From positions 1 to 37,548 of the forward strand of contig JAEESS010000019.1 of NCBI GenBank assembly GCA_016286445.1: a stretch of DNA of 37,548 bases, written 5' to 3'. Below are positions 31,677 to 36,446 of the stretch, piece by piece. Source of the stretch: Bacillota bacterium. Lineage in GTDB: Bacteria; Bacillota; Clostridia; Christensenellales; CAG-138. Position 1 is the first letter of the stretch; each line of letters begins with the position of its first letter. The notes below the pieces were generated by a model. That model had not been told where the DNA came from and made no database searches. It saw only the letters and a list, made by a program, of their open reading frames with translations. Both the position numbers and the translations under genes were made by a program.

Positions 31677-32684
31677 ATGTATACGGGATCCGGAATCATC
31701 AAGATCTTTGCAGGCAGAACGGGCAAGCCGTTTGCGCAGCGTATGTGCGATTATCTCGGCGCGCAGATGGGCGACGCGACGACGATCATGTTCGACGAGG
31801 GCAATATCTTCGTTCGCATCAATGAATCCATCCGCGACAAGGACGTCTATATCGTACAGCCGATCGGCAGAGAACCGAACGATGAGTTCACCGAGCTGCT
31901 CTTCTGGATCGATGCATTCAAGCGCTCCAGCGCAAACTCGGTCACCGCGATCATACCGTATTTTTCCTACGCGAAGGGCGATAAAAAGGACGAGCCGCGC
32001 GTTTCGATCCGTGCGCGCGTGTGCGCTGACTGCATCGAAACGATCGGCGTCGACCGTGTGCTGTTCATGGATCTGCACGCGGATCAGGTCGTGGGCTTCT
32101 TCAAGAAGCCGGTCGACCACCTCTCCGCGCGTCCGCTTCTGCTCGAGTACGTCAAGCGGCAGGGCATCGTGAACGACGATCTCGTTGTGGTCTCTCCCGA
32201 CGCCGGCAGCGCAAAGCGCGTGCACAGCTTTGCAACGGCGCTGCAGGTACCGGTCGCGATCGGCGACAAGACGCGTTACGACCACAAGAGCGACGCGAAG
32301 GTGCTGAACATCATCGGCAACGTCGAGAACAAGAACTGCCTCGTCGTGGACGACTTCTCCATCACGGGCGGCACGCTTGTCGACGTCGCAAGAGCATTGA
32401 AGGAGCACGGCGCGCAGCATGTCTACGGCGCGCTTTCCCACAACGTCATGACGCAGAAGGCGATCCACCGCATCGAGGAGAGCGATTACGAATGGCTCGT
32501 CTCCACCGACACGCTTGAATGTCCGTGGGCGAACGAGAGCACCAAGCTGCGCACGATCTCGGCGGCGCCGATGTTCGCGCAGGCGGTCAAGACGATCCAC
32601 GACCGCGCGCCGATGAGCTCGATGTTCGATCACCGCGTGCTGAAGCGTCTGATGGACATGAGCCTCGAAACGAGCGAGGACTGA
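31677..32684 (+). CDS. prs: Ribose-phosphate pyrophosphokinase (divergent member)
   Basis: A 335-residue protein of the PRPP synthetase family, which makes PRPP from ribose 5-phosphate and ATP for nucleotide, His and Trp synthesis. Family blocks are present but altered: DLHADQVVGFFKKPVDHL where DLHAGQIQGFF is usual, VVSPDAGSAKRVHSFA where SPDxGGVxRA is usual, and VVDDFSITGGTLVD where DDIIDTAGT is usual. The PRPP-loop acidic pair DD and TGGT remain, so catalysis is plausible. ATG 31677 follows AAGGGGA. It has its own promoter and terminator, a single-gene unit. Confidence 0.82.
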   Translation: MYTGSGIIKIFAGRTGKPFAQRMCDYLGAQMGDATTIMFDEGNIFVRINESIRDKDVYIVQPIGREPNDEFTELLFWIDAFKRSSANSVTAIIPYFSYAKGDKKDEPRVSIRARVCADCIETIGVDRVLFMDLHADQVVGFFKKPVDHLSARPLLLEYVKRQGIVNDDLVVVSPDAGSAKRVHSFATALQVPVAIGDKTRYDHKSDAKVLNIIGNVENKNCLVVDDFSITGGTLVDVARALKEHGAQHVYGALSHNVMTQKAIHRIEESDYEWLVSTDTLECPWANESTKLRTISAAPMFAQAVKTIHDRAPMSSMFDHRVLKRLMDMSLETSED

Positions 32685-32724: not shown

Positions 32725-32783
32725 GCAACCGTTCGGGCGTTTGCGCGGTATTCCTTTTGAGAACCGAAAAGGAGAACCGAACC

Positions 32784-33101
32784 GTGAAACAGCAGAAACT
32801 GACTGGCTACGCGCCGAAATACCCGAAAAAAGTCCTGCGCGGCGCCGCGCTCGCGGCGGCGGCCCTGCTTGCCGTCGGCGCTTCGACCGGATGCGCGGAG
32901 AAGGCTTCGTGGAAGCCGATAACGGGCGGCGTGCCGCAGATCCTTGAACCGACGCCGGAGCCGATGGAGCTCGGCTATATCGGAACGATGCCGCCGGACA
33001 CCGAGCTGCGCACGGAGGGCATCGTCCCCGTGGAACCGACGGAAGAACCGGACGATCTGGCGCTTTCGGGCGACGTGATGATCGGTGACGATTTTGAATA
33101 A
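32784..33101 (+). CDS. Lipoprotein-like short peptide A, possible radical SAM substrate
   Basis: A 105-residue peptide starting at GTG 32784 with AAGGAGA upstream; the GTG gives an N-terminus that aligns residue for residue with peptide B, while an upstream TTG would not. Residues 1-20 hold the block Y9-x-P11-x-Y13-P14-x-K16-x-x-R19-G20-A21 and a hydrophobic stretch to ~33; a lipobox-like STGC ends at C37. The 68-residue tail is acidic and Pro-rich, ending ALSGDVMIGDDFE. It has no other cysteine. It may be an ordinary small lipoprotein or a precursor acted on by the radical SAM protein two genes on. No clear promoter of its own was found. Confidence 0.7.
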   Translation: MKQQKLTGYAPKYPKKVLRGAALAAAALLAVGASTGCAEKASWKPITGGVPQILEPTPEPMELGYIGTMPPDTELRTEGIVPVEPTEEPDDLALSGDVMIGDDFE

Positions 33102-33112
33102 GGAGAGACCGG

Positions 33113-33430
33113 ATGAAACAGAAACAAGTCCAGGACTACCGTCCGAATTATCCGAGAAAACTGATCCGGGGCGCGATCCTCACGACCGCCGCCGCGGTCG
33201 CGCTGACGGGTACGGCGGGCTGCGAGCTTACGCATACGGGCAAAAATGCGCCGGAAGCGCAGCCGACCGACGAGCTCGTGCTGGACGGCGAGGTCGGCTA
33301 CGAACTCCCGACCGAGGAACCGATGCTCGAGGGAGAACCCACGGTCGAGGAAACGGACGACGCGTTTACGCGCGGGGAGCCCGCGCTTCAGGGCAAGATC
33401 ATCGTGCCGGAAGACACCCCGGAACCGTAA
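33113..33430 (+). CDS. Lipoprotein-like short peptide B, possible radical SAM substrate
   Basis: A 105-residue paralog of peptide A, 11 nt after it, with AAGGAGA before ATG 33113. It shares the same leader spacing: Y9-x-P11-x-Y13-P14-R-K16-x-x-R19-G20-A21, hydrophobic ~22-33, then TAGC with G36-C37. The 68-residue tail is acidic with repeated LxG[EK] units (VLDGE, MLEGE, ALQGK) separated by Glu/Thr/Pro linkers. C37 is the only cysteine. The stop is 9 nt before the radical SAM gene, whose Shine-Dalgarno overlaps the stop region, so the two are very likely co-expressed. Confidence 0.72.
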   Translation: MKQKQVQDYRPNYPRKLIRGAILTTAAAVALTGTAGCELTHTGKNAPEAQPTDELVLDGEVGYELPTEEPMLEGEPTVEETDDAFTRGEPALQGKIIVPEDTPEP

Positions 33431-33439
33431 GGAGCGCAT

Positions 33440-34519
33440 ATGAATTTCACCTTGCATTTGACGGCAGACTGTAATCTCAGCTGCCGTTATTGTTACGAAA
33501 CGCACGCAAAGCGCCGCATGACGGAGGAGACGGCAAAACGGGCCGTCGATCTCGCGTTCTTGTACGGGCACGAAAAGAACGGTTTTTCGCTGTTCGGCGG
33601 CGAGCCGCTGCTGGAGCGCGCGACGATCGAATCGCTCGTCCGTTACGCGGCGGAAAAGGCGAAGAAGACGGGCACGGGCCTGCGCTTCAAAATGACGACC
33701 AACGGCACGCTGCTGGACGAGGCGTTTCTGCGGTTTGCGGACGAACACCGGATCGACGTCGCGCTCTCGCACGACGGGCTTTTGCAGGACGTACAGCGCG
33801 TCACGCGCGACGGGAGCCCGACGGCGGAACGGCTTGAACCGGTCGTCGATCTGCTGCTCCGATACCAGCCGAACGCCGTCGCGATGCAGACGGTCATGCC
33901 GTCGACCGTCGACCGCATGGCGGAATCGGTCGAATGGCTGTATCGGAGGGGCTTTTCCCGCATCAATACGGCGATCGACTATCGCGTCGGCGCGGGATGG
34001 GACGACGCGTCCATGGCGGTGCTGAAGACGCAGTATGAACGCATTGCGGATCTCTCCGACGCGCATTTCGACGATGCGCGGCCGCTGCTGTATCTCAATT
34101 TCCTGTCCAAGATCTCGGCGTATCTGAACGACCGTCCGTGCATGGAATGCCGGCTCGGCATGCGGCAGCCGTCGATCGCGCCGGACGGCTCGATCTATCC
34201 GTGCAACCAGTTCCTGGATCTTCCGGACTATCGCATGGGCGACGTGGAACACGGGATCGACACGGAAAAGCAGCGCGCGATCTACCGCGCGTCGCTCGAT
34301 CCGGAGCCGGACTGCGAGGGCTGCGCGATCGCGGACCGCTGCCGGCATCACTGCGCCTGCCTGAACTTCAGTCTGACCGGACGGATGCATACGGTCGCGC
34401 CGGTGCAGTGCGAGCACGAACGCATCCTGATCCCCGTTGCGGACGCGCTGGCGGAGCGGCTGTACGAGCGGAAGAGCGCAAGATTCCTGTTGAGTTATCG
34501 GGACGACCCGCTGGATTGA
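33440..34519 (+). CDS. Radical SAM/SPASM protein, peptide-maturase-like
   Basis: A 359-residue protein. The N-terminal radical SAM cluster is C11-x3-C15-x2-C18 (LTADCNLSCRYCYETH), followed by FSLFGGEPLL and FKMTTNGTLLDE of the TIM barrel. The C-terminal SPASM region has C234, C237, C255 (SIAPDGSIYPCNQF), GDVEHG, then C292, C295, C301, C305, C307 and C324, enough for auxiliary iron-sulfur clusters. This layout is typical of peptide-modifying enzymes and sulfatase maturases. No sulfatase is near, while two paralogous short peptides lie directly upstream, so peptides A and B are the likely substrates (inference). TAAGGAGC precedes ATG 33440. Confidence 0.85.
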   Translation: MNFTLHLTADCNLSCRYCYETHAKRRMTEETAKRAVDLAFLYGHEKNGFSLFGGEPLLERATIESLVRYAAEKAKKTGTGLRFKMTTNGTLLDEAFLRFADEHRIDVALSHDGLLQDVQRVTRDGSPTAERLEPVVDLLLRYQPNAVAMQTVMPSTVDRMAESVEWLYRRGFSRINTAIDYRVGAGWDDASMAVLKTQYERIADLSDAHFDDARPLLYLNFLSKISAYLNDRPCMECRLGMRQPSIAPDGSIYPCNQFLDLPDYRMGDVEHGIDTEKQRAIYRASLDPEPDCEGCAIADRCRHHCACLNFSLTGRMHTVAPVQCEHERILIPVADALAERLYERKSARFLLSYRDDPLD

Positions 34520-34527
34520 CGGATCGA

Positions 34528-34553
34528 AGCGGCGCGGAAGCGCCGCTTTTTTT
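34528..34553 (+). terminator. Intrinsic terminator of the peptide/radical SAM operon
   Basis: AGCGGCGC (34528-34535) and GCGCCGCT (34540-34547) form an 8-bp stem around GGAA, followed by a T run. Confidence 0.9.
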
Positions 34554-34606: not shown

Positions 34607-34636
34607 TTGACAGGAGCCCTTTTTTTCCGTTATAAT
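34607..34636 (+). promoter_or_regulatory. Downstream promoter P2 of the CarD-like gene
   Basis: TTGACA (34607-34612), an 18-bp spacer and TATAAT (34631-34636), about 32 nt before the GTG start. Confidence 0.85.
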
Positions 34637-34668: not shown

Positions 34669-35142
34669 GTGTTTCAGATCGGTGATCTCGTCTGCTATCC
34701 GATGCACGGCGTCGGCGTGGTAGAGGCGATCGAAGAACAAACGATCCTCGGTGAGACGGCGTCGTATTACCGGCTTCGCTTTACGATCGGCCGCATGACG
34801 GCGATGGTGCCCGTCAAAAATGCCGAGCAGGTGGGGCTTCGGGCGCTTGCGGACGAGCAGACCTGCGCGCGCGTCGTCGGTTTTCTGAAGAACGACGAGT
34901 GTTCGGCGGAGAGCGACAACTGGAACCAGCGGTATCGCGACAATCTCGACAAGCTGCGCGGCGGCGACATCATGGTCGTTGCGGACGTGGTCAAGTGCCT
35001 GATGCGGCGCGATCGCGAACGCGGGTTGTCCGCGGGCGAGCGCAAGATGTATCTGACCGCACGTCAGGTGCTGGTCGCGGAACTTGCCGCGGCGACCGAA
35101 ACGGACGAATCGAACTTCCTTCCGCTGGTCGGAGCGGAATGA
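34669..35142 (+). CDS. CarD-family transcription regulator
   Basis: A 157-residue cytoplasmic protein that starts with the CarD/CdnL/TRCF RNA-polymerase-interaction fold: MFQIGDLVCYPMHGVGVVEAI, then YYRLRFTIGRMTAMVPVKNA (~33-52). A helical C-terminal half (~60-150) includes RDNLDKLRGGDIMVVADVVK and LSAGERKMYLTARQVL. CarD proteins bind the RNA polymerase beta subunit and stabilise open complexes. The start is GTG 34669 after AAGGAGGGG. The gene has two tandem promoters and its own terminator. Confidence 0.88.
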   Translation: MFQIGDLVCYPMHGVGVVEAIEEQTILGETASYYRLRFTIGRMTAMVPVKNAEQVGLRALADEQTCARVVGFLKNDECSAESDNWNQRYRDNLDKLRGGDIMVVADVVKCLMRRDRERGLSAGERKMYLTARQVLVAELAAATETDESNFLPLVGAE

Positions 35143-35267: not shown

Positions 35268-36446
35268 ATGGCCGGTACGATTTCAAGAGGCATCAAAGCG
35301 CCGATCATCCGTGAGGGCGACGACATCGTAACGATCGTTGCGGATTCGGTTCTGGCGGCGGCGGAGAAGGATGGATTTCAGCTGAAGGAACGCGACGTGA
35401 TCGCGGTGACCGAAGCGGTCGTGGCGCGTGCGGACGGCAACTACTGCACCGTCGACGATATCTCCGCGGACGTGCGGGAAAAACTCGGCGACACGGTCGC
35501 CGTCGTGTTCCCGATCATGAGCCGCAACCGGTTCGCGATCTGCCTTCGCGGCATTGCGAGACGGGCGAAGAAGGTCGTCGTGCTGCTTTCCTATCCGGCG
35601 GACGAGGAAGGCAACCATCTGATCGACGAGGACGCGCTGTTCGACGCGGGCGTGAATCCGTACACGGATACGTTCACCGAGGCGGAATTCGTCGCGCGGT
35701 TCGGCGAGCCGAAGCATCCGTTCACCGGCGTGAACTACCTTGCGTACTATCGCTCGCTGATCGAGGAGGAGGGCGCGGAGGCCGTGATCCTGCTCGGCAA
35801 CGATCCGACCGCGGTTTTGCCGTATACCGGCCGCGTGCTCGTCAGCAACATCCATGAGCGCGCGCGCACGGCAAGACGGCTTGAAAAGGCGGGCGCGGAA
35901 AAGGTGCTGACGCTCTGCGACGTCATGAGCGCGCCGAGAAACGGCAGCGGCTGTCAGCCGGAATACGGGCTTCTGGGCTCGAACAAGGCGACGGAAAACG
36001 TCGTGAAGCTGTTCCCGAAAAACGCGCGCGAGGTCGCAAACGCGATCCAGCGCGAGATCCTCTCGCGTACGGGCGTACACGTCGAGGCGATGGTCTACGG
36101 CGACGGCGCGTTCAAGGATCCGGTCGGCAAGATCTGGGAGCTGGCGGACCCGGTGGTTTCGCCCGGATATACCGACGGGCTCGTGGGGCTGCCGAACGAA
36201 CTGAAGCTCAAATACCTTGCGGACAATGAGTTCAAGGCGCTTTCCGGCAAAGAGCTCGAGGACGCGATCCGCGCGCGCATCCGCGAAAAGGAACGCGATC
36301 TGAAGGGGAAGATGGACTCGCAGGGCACGACGCCGCGGCGGCTGACCGACCTGATCGGCTCGCTGTGCGATTTGACGAGCGGCAGCGGCGACAAGGGCAC
36401 GCCGATCGTTCTGGTCCAGAACTACTTCAACAATTACGCGGACTGA
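35268..36446 (+). CDS. CofE-like (coenzyme F420-0:L-glutamate ligase family) protein
   Basis: A 392-residue protein of the F420 gamma-glutamyl ligase family (PF01996-type). It opens with GIKAPIIREGDDIVTIVADS and has KERDVIAVTEAVVARADGNY. A core with IMSRNRFAICLRGIARRAKK, VHVEAMVYGDGAFKDP (~264-279) and SPGYTDGLVGLPNELKLKY follows. In methanogens and actinobacteria CofE adds glutamates to F420; many Clostridia carry such proteins although F420 is not known there, so the true substrate may differ. AAGGAGGA precedes ATG 35268. It has its own promoter and a bidirectional terminator at its 3' side. Confidence 0.85.
   Translation: MAGTISRGIKAPIIREGDDIVTIVADSVLAAAEKDGFQLKERDVIAVTEAVVARADGNYCTVDDISADVREKLGDTVAVVFPIMSRNRFAICLRGIARRAKKVVVLLSYPADEEGNHLIDEDALFDAGVNPYTDTFTEAEFVARFGEPKHPFTGVNYLAYYRSLIEEEGAEAVILLGNDPTAVLPYTGRVLVSNIHERARTARRLEKAGAEKVLTLCDVMSAPRNGSGCQPEYGLLGSNKATENVVKLFPKNAREVANAIQREILSRTGVHVEAMVYGDGAFKDPVGKIWELADPVVSPGYTDGLVGLPNELKLKYLADNEFKALSGKELEDAIRARIREKERDLKGKMDSQGTTPRRLTDLIGSLCDLTSGSGDKGTPIVLVQNYFNNYAD

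Follow-up and report, generated by a model that had tools for sequence, protein, structure and literature searches.

A radical SAM/SPASM enzyme encoded with lipoprotein-like peptides in Clostridia and its predicted role as a lipoprotein maturase

Contig JAEESS010000019.1 (assembly GCA_016286445.1), from a Bacillota bacterium of the CAG-138 lineage of Clostridia, carries a tightly packed unit of two open reading frames (ORFs) for lipoprotein-like peptides of 105 residues each and a gene for a 359-residue radical SAM/SPASM enzyme, separated by spacers of 11 and 9 nt. The window analysed here is the entire contig of 37,548 nucleotides. An initial annotation, made from the letters alone, had described these genes, their spacing and a terminator closing the unit, and all of these were confirmed, the last as a terminator-like hairpin. 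AGGAG-type sites lie just 5' of each of the three starts, at 32770, 33100 and 33430. The unit comprises:

32784..33101, forward strand: putative substrate 1, 105 residues, GTG start, leader, lipoprotein-like signal and acidic tail
33113..33430, forward strand: putative substrate 2, 105 residues, ATG start, a paralog with the same leader and another tail
33440..34519, forward strand: radical SAM/SPASM enzyme, 359 residues, radical SAM core from the very start
34526..34549, forward strand: terminator-like hairpin with a T run, 3' end of the unit

The two peptides align without gaps over their N-terminal 37 or so residues and only loosely beyond (35% identity over 110 columns, E 1e-12). Both begin with (M/V)KQ(K/Q), followed by YxPxYP(K/R)K, a hydrophobic stretch, GC at position 37 and an acidic tail with LxG motifs; the common residues are Y9, P11, Y13, P14, K16, R19-G20-A21 and G36-C37, exactly those listed at the outset. 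The 15-residue Kyte-Doolittle maximum reaches 2.09 in substrate 1 and 1.82 in substrate 2. A leader profile of which both peptides are themselves rows matches them at 4.9e-19 and 1.4e-20, respectively. The charged N-terminus, hydrophobic stretch and [GA]C end presumably fit the PROSITE lipobox pattern, with Ser and Thr rather than Leu at position −3. Neither peptide has an NCBIfam match (E up to 1), a Pfam match above cut-off or a PHROG match; a Shadoo match of the first peptide (18.6 bits against a cut-off of 27) is probably composition noise. Both tails are free of cysteine, the sole cysteine of each peptide being the one proposed for lipid attachment, and the tail motifs VLDGE, MLEGE, ALQGK and ALSGD named in the initial annotation are all present:

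32808..32825, forward strand: leader block YxPxYP (residues 9-14 of substrate 1), proposed as the site that the enzyme recognises
32892..32894, forward strand: codon of Cys37 in substrate 1, the residue proposed for lipid attachment, at the end of the hydrophobic stretch
33009..33032, forward strand: tail motif RTEGIVPV, substrate 1
33060..33083, forward strand: tail motif ALSGDVMI, substrate 1
33137..33154, forward strand: leader block YxPxYP (residues 9-14 of substrate 2), likewise proposed for recognition
33221..33223, forward strand: Cys37 codon of substrate 2, proposed lipid-attachment Cys
33278..33301, forward strand: tail motif VLDGEVGY, substrate 2
33323..33346, forward strand: tail motif MLEGEPTV, substrate 2
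33383..33406, forward strand: tail motif ALQGKIIV, substrate 2

The enzyme has the radical SAM fold and its CX3CX2C cluster motif, together with seven further cysteines in the arrangement CX12GX4C / CX2CX5CX3C / C (C237, C255, C292, C295, C301, C305 and C324), which we take to be the SPASM signature. Conservation was read from alignments of 16 chosen homologs (A2) and 28 chosen rows (A5), with a further alignment (A4) of 24 chosen rows; the seven cysteines are invariant in the 16 homologs.

33470..33493, forward strand: CX3CX2C radical SAM cluster motif (C11, C15, C18; residues 11-18), invariant in two alignments
34148..34411, forward strand: SPASM seven-cysteine region (C237 to C324), invariant in two alignments

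Despite this complete cysteine pattern, the Pfam SPASM model scores 17.5, below its cut-off of 21.5, and the enzyme lies under every other curated cut-off shown as well. The best curated model is PapB (NCBIfam NF047865), at 188.6 bits against a cut-off of 340, with 215.4 and 229.5 bits for the relatives L056 and L058; the SCIFF maturase model TIGR03974 gives 130.2 bits against 425. CteB, a SCIFF maturase whose N-terminal part holds its RiPP recognition element (RRE), is the nearest solved structure (PDB 5wgg), and the enzyme matches it only from residue 94 (fold comparison) or 99 (profile) onward. Judged from these alignments, the enzyme would be a CteB-like protein that lacks the N-terminal region and hence an RRE region as in CteB. 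A ChlB-leader complex (PDB 9gm3, 9gmc), likened to the present system by the titles of its structure entries alone, shares 20% identity with the enzyme; our literature search found no paper on that complex.

The association of enzyme and peptides recurs among close relatives. An enzyme ortholog with at least 76% identity is present in 19 of 23 genomes of the genus, at 20 loci, two of them in the bin of the window itself. One or two such peptides lie upstream in 19 of these loci; in the remaining one, L013, the sequence stops 280 bases upstream of the enzyme, and the same contig as L100 shows a peptide cut inside its leader. Cysteine ends the hydrophobic stretch in all 32 genus peptides, at position 37 in 28 and at 33-36 in the other four. 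Leaders are better conserved than tails, with identities of 0.60 against 0.33 for first peptides (n = 16) and 0.77 against 0.53 for second peptides (n = 11), and the number of motif copies varies from 3 to 8. The genus alignment (A1) holds 18 of the 20 loci, without L019 and without L010, whose enzyme ortholog (G008:C27, 86% identity) has an internal TGA leaving about 249 residues, although both adjoining peptide ORFs are open. Selection of the 32 peptides by the pattern [YF]xPxYP partly builds in their shared Y and P, and a YxPxYP count of 32 of 32 proves nothing by itself; the pattern also missed a second peptide in G018 and in G021, both of which the leader profile found. A pattern-free profile search of the family loci gave 53 distinct leader windows, with YxPxYP in 51, PxYP in 52 and YP in all 53.

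Across 103 genomes of the family, the enzyme profile identified 45 loci in 43 genomes at 276 bits or more, the remaining listed matches reaching at most 101.5, and a 40-residue leader profile gave 58 matches in 40 genomes. For nearly all leader matches (54/58), one of the 45 enzyme loci follows on the same strand within 1.5 kb. Three others lie at contig ends: those in G020 and G071 run off the contig mid-gene, and the third, in G065:C95, starts 97 bases from the contig end, a statement of position only. The last, in G025, is spurious, a weak match to 23 residues of the hydrophobic part (profile positions 16-38). Seen from the enzyme, 38 of the 43 genomes have a leader match, four (G032, G033, G037 and G101) have partners with divergent leaders, found by reading the loci, and in one, G003, the contig ends within the leader of the peptide.

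A wider contig scan for relatives of the enzyme, of which the best 80 of 314 were kept, about 30 of them from genomes of the family search, extends this pairing. Pooled leader profiles match 71 of these 80 distant loci, and the weakest of the 71 proved real on checking. Reading added a lipoprotein-type partner in L152, L156, L162, L166 and L169, and in L131 the C-terminal part of such a partner, bringing the loci with a partner or a cut piece to 77; L113 and L171 are truncated by the end of their contigs. The partner lies downstream rather than upstream of the enzyme in L138 and L155. The same leader profiles gave no match in 37 control loci of other radical SAM enzymes. A more independent test used 398 genomes drawn evenly from the phylum. 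Three further enzymes scored at least 525 bits (G842, G511 and G723), and immediately upstream of each lies a leader lipoprotein, which the next two enzymes in score (265 and 242 bits), both outside the group, do not have; G842 is not wholly new, because it looks like the organism of L150.

The initial annotation had regarded a conserved leader, a variable tail and an adjacent maturase as the layout of a ribosomally made modified peptide, and had named orthologs without peptides, or peptides without the enzyme, as evidence to the contrary. Peptides without the enzyme are absent from the 103 genomes apart from the contig-end case in G020 and the spurious match, and L129 is the only intact locus among the 80 to lack a partner; because neither contrary pattern emerged, the layout interpretation, which recurs in the enzyme's relatives, is supported. 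Could the genes instead be chance neighbours held together by shared ancestry? Close relatives are indeed syntenic around the operon, including two contigs of the window's own bin, but the pairing persists amid different surrounding genes and in bins named for other phyla, which makes this explanation highly improbable.

The relatives also reveal kinds of partner that the initial annotation had missed, namely lipoproteins of about 270 residues with a predicted folded domain, and leader-like starts without any signal stretch. Small partners (about 80-150 residues) end in repeat tails of the LxG[DE]V type. Large partners (about 195-340 residues) have a leader like PVKxYxxPxYP...LPxRW, a signal stretch and a C-terminal domain that, according to structural models, would be folded. 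Most of them contain a loop reading GxGxGS[YF]GC[V/D]SVxPPxFLSEEEA, as judged from an alignment of 27 rows that leaves aside the second partner of L128, that of L155 and one of the three in L165. P12, Y14, P15 and P31 are invariant in these 27, P.YP partly by selection; among 13 large partners found by the loop motif alone, PxYP stands near the start in 13. The large lipoproteins of L056, L057 and L058 belong to no NCBIfam family and match no Pfam model above cut-off, that of L159 has no PHROG match, and a sequence search of the PDB with large partners gave no match. Intermediate partners, with LxGDVA-type repeats and additional sequence, occur as the second partner of L128 and in L137, L143, L144 and L154. 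In L167 the loop of the large type reads LAGDVAVP, which is the motif of the small tails and links the two kinds. When substrate kinds were labelled by eye on a tree of 79 enzymes (L093-L126 all as small, the cut L100 and L113 included), they followed the clades, with 6 changes against 29.7 for shuffled labels, a result that near-copies help.

Five partners keep a leader-like start and have no hydrophobic stretch, with maxima of at most 0.51 against 1.8-2.1: L068 3999-4247, L055 3818-4033 and ORFs in L136, L139 and L140. That of L068 has an AAGGAG site before its start and retains the tail LILDGDVEIDVPED; in L140 the leader block has drifted to YEGAF. Because the block stays when the export signal is gone, the YxPxYP-type block is probably what the enzyme reads.

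These observations also bear on the idea that the small proteins are not substrates but lipoproteins that assist an enzyme whose target lies elsewhere. In its favour, modification of the partners is a prediction, and the domain modelled as folded in the large ones could have a function of its own. One to three diverging paralogs per enzyme, with motif copies varying as they do, nevertheless fit substrates better, and so does the occurrence of leader-like starts both ahead of differing C-terminal parts and on proteins that have no export signal; we consider a helper role quite unlikely.

What could the enzyme do to its partners? The 54 distinct small tails, which came through a pattern filter, amount to 3934 residues with 15% Glu, 13% Pro, 11% Asp and 9% Gly and a mean net charge of −16.7. 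The motif [LYMTI].G[DENYKI][VIMA].[VIYP] occurs 93 times in them against 1.7 ± 1.4 (maximum 8) in 500 residue shuffles, a contrast that is not a probability because the motif was chosen after reading the tails and related tails are counted separately. Relative to Gly, position −2 shows a 3.9-fold excess of Leu and position +2 a 3.4-fold excess of Val. Most large partners contain a conserved LxLDGYD-like stretch that is similar to the small tails; it was considered as a shared site and set aside, as it lies between model strands and may be structural; the GCVSV loop is the better candidate, because LAGDVAV of L167 aligns with it, albeit in a single row.

Thioether formation of the PapB/ranthipeptide or SCIFF type, in which a Cys sulfur is joined to Asp/Glu or another carbon, was considered first as the general chemistry, PapB being the nearest curated family. 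PapB is likewise a radical SAM/SPASM enzyme acting on a leader-bearing peptide; it abstracts at Asp/Glu side-chain carbons, and its peptide PapA is not known to be a lipoprotein. The best-scoring characterised relatives, PapB and the SCIFF maturase, both make thioethers, the tails are rich in Asp/Glu, GC stands in the motif loop of 23 of the 27 aligned large partners, and one or two cysteines occur in 17 of the 54 small tails (one in 12, two in 5). PapB, however, joins Cys to Asp/Glu in CX3D/E motifs and needs the Cys partner in its motif, according to the accessible part of PMC9413430, whereas 37 of the 54 small tails are Cys-free, those of the window among them; L167 has no Cys at the place of GCVSV, and the PapB score falls far under its cut-off. 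The mostly Cys-free small tails rule out thioethers as the general chemistry, and we judge a system of this type distinctly unlikely. For the same reason a non-thioether reaction is likelier, and our guess is carbon-carbon or carbon-oxygen bond formation, desaturation or epimerisation near the motif Gly.

Lipid anchoring was part of the initial annotation, which called a membrane-anchored modified peptide an unusual idea. The anchoring finds support in sequence features, and the idea now has precedents, since lipoproteins that are also ribosomally synthesised and post-translationally modified peptides (RiPPs) exist, made by multinuclear non-heme iron-dependent oxidative (MNIO) enzymes. As far as the accessible part of PMC12636315 goes, these DAG-RiPPs (DybA/DybH, NedA/NedBC) were proven experimentally in 2025 and establish that the action of a RiPP enzyme can precede lipoprotein processing. 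They resemble the model developed here in having a cytosolic enzyme, a precursor with a lipoprotein signal, removal of the N-terminus by signal peptidase II and a lipid-anchored product. They differ in that DybH and NedBC are MNIO enzymes and the operon here encodes a radical SAM enzyme, in that DybH reads a C-terminal motif and the conserved block here precedes the signal stretch, and in that their modification is proven whereas here it is predicted. The same part of the article expects RiPP-lipoprotein hybrids mostly among leader-independent RiPPs and leaves room for examples with non-MNIO enzymes; neither radical nor rSAM appears as a word in its main text. Sec signals on MNIO substrates, bufferins and others, are surveyed in PMC12452194, the accessible part of which describes a Sec signal replacing the classical leader, as here, and some predicted lipoproteins; the enzymes in that part are MNIO enzymes, mostly with Cys-based chemistry, and it mentions no radical SAM enzyme in a comparable role. 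Our literature search recognised no description of a radical SAM system with lipoprotein substrates, most subscription journals being outside its coverage.

A variant in which modification occurs on a partner without a lipid anchor, the hydrophobic stretch being an ordinary Sec signal or a retained membrane anchor, draws on three distant loci (L160, L161 and L167) whose partners lack a lipobox Cys and on the Ser and Thr at −3 in the window peptides. Against it, a Cys ends the hydrophobic stretch in every one of the 32 genus peptides and most small tails contain no other; we regard it as unlikely.

Taken together, we propose, with a probability of roughly three in four, that the enzyme represents a new class of radical SAM maturase that reads the YxPxYP leader and modifies the exported part of its partner before lipid anchoring. 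As part of this explanation the three genes form one operon for a radical SAM-modified lipoprotein. The evidence in hand is the repeated linkage, the co-occurrence, the conserved leader beside a variable tail and the complete radical SAM/SPASM enzyme. The cytosolic enzyme, without an N-terminal RRE region, would bind the N-terminal leader of its partner directly, as the conservation suggests, and would act on the region C-terminal to the signal stretch, with the [L/T]-x-G-[D/E/x]-[V/I] repeats as the most likely site; in large partners the counterpart would be the GxGxGS[YF]GC[V/D]SVxPP loop. The modified protein would then pass through Sec, receive its lipid on the Cys that follows the hydrophobic stretch and be cut there by signal peptidase II. 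Because export itself would remove the leader, no dedicated protease or transporter would be needed; what remains, an acidic chain carrying the modification, would sit anchored on the outer side of the membrane. Linkage and conservation argue for the modification step, sequence features for export and lipidation. A fuller version, in which the class modifies lipoproteins instead of free peptides, small and folded ones alike, free of an RRE and independent of Cys, by a new non-thioether change at LxG[DE]V/GxGC, is a tentative though serious possibility. We file the system as a radical SAM/SPASM maturase with its putative substrates, outside the PapB, SCIFF and DAG-RiPP families, because each of these fails at least one tested feature.

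Several points weigh against this proposal. Modification of the partner is a prediction from genes. L129 encodes an enzyme homolog with no partner seen in its 11 kb, the one clean exception of the 80, and in L161 the partner lies 2.3 kb upstream of the enzyme. The partners of L160 (in a bin named Paludibaculum) and L167 (Armatimonadota) have no lipobox Cys, and that of L161 has a Cys only in a YLLC setting, so that lipid anchoring is not universal. Only the Gly is near-fixed in the tail motif, which makes the target residue unreadable from sequence. Moreover, the leader profiles were partly trained on the loci in which matches were counted, the 32 genus peptides were pre-selected by the YxPxYP pattern, and most of the genomes are metagenome bins.

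Around the operon, a ribose-phosphate pyrophosphokinase gene (31677-32684) lies on the 5' side and a CarD-type regulator (34669-35142) on the 3' side. A perfect promoter-like site, TTGACA-18-TATAAT, stands at 34607-34636 between the terminator-like hairpin and the CarD gene, and a protein like F420-0:gamma-glutamyl ligase (186 bits) is encoded at 35268-36446. The named relatives of the genome are Clostridia, and the nearest ones of the window are Clostridia bins, many from the rumen or other animal guts. The assembly is of metagenome type, with 109 contigs and a stated contamination of 5.56%. The region of the window contig (G000:C58) is also found on G000:C85 (locus L078), collinear over about 9 kb at 81-89% nucleotide identity; since it is present twice in one bin, this bin is probably a mixture of two related species. 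Beside a different SPASM-type enzyme, L207 (reverse-complement 962-1393) and L208 (reverse-complement 1020-1433) have ORFs of about 140 residues that share an H[IL]HL..(V/I)Y(E/V)LN stretch and may represent a further family of substrates associated with radical SAM enzymes.

In conclusion, uncultured Clostridia of gut and rumen often carry the system, which is present in Bacillota and in bins named Armatimonadota, Acidobacteriota and Bacteroidota; as named strains have it too (Pseudobacteroides cellulosolvens DSM 2933, Anaeromassilibacillus senegalensis mt9 and Candidatus Formimonas warabiya DCMF), it is open to testing. It would be the radical SAM counterpart of the MNIO RiPP-lipoproteins, for which PMC12636315 reports no other kind of enzyme, and would combine a recognition leader with a lipoprotein signal where the authors of that article, in its accessible part, expect mainly leader-independent pathways. 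With most small tails Cys-free, its reaction probably differs from the thioether formation of its nearest relatives. One enzyme family serving both short repetitive peptides and folded lipoproteins would bear on the reach of radical SAM enzymes beyond small peptides.
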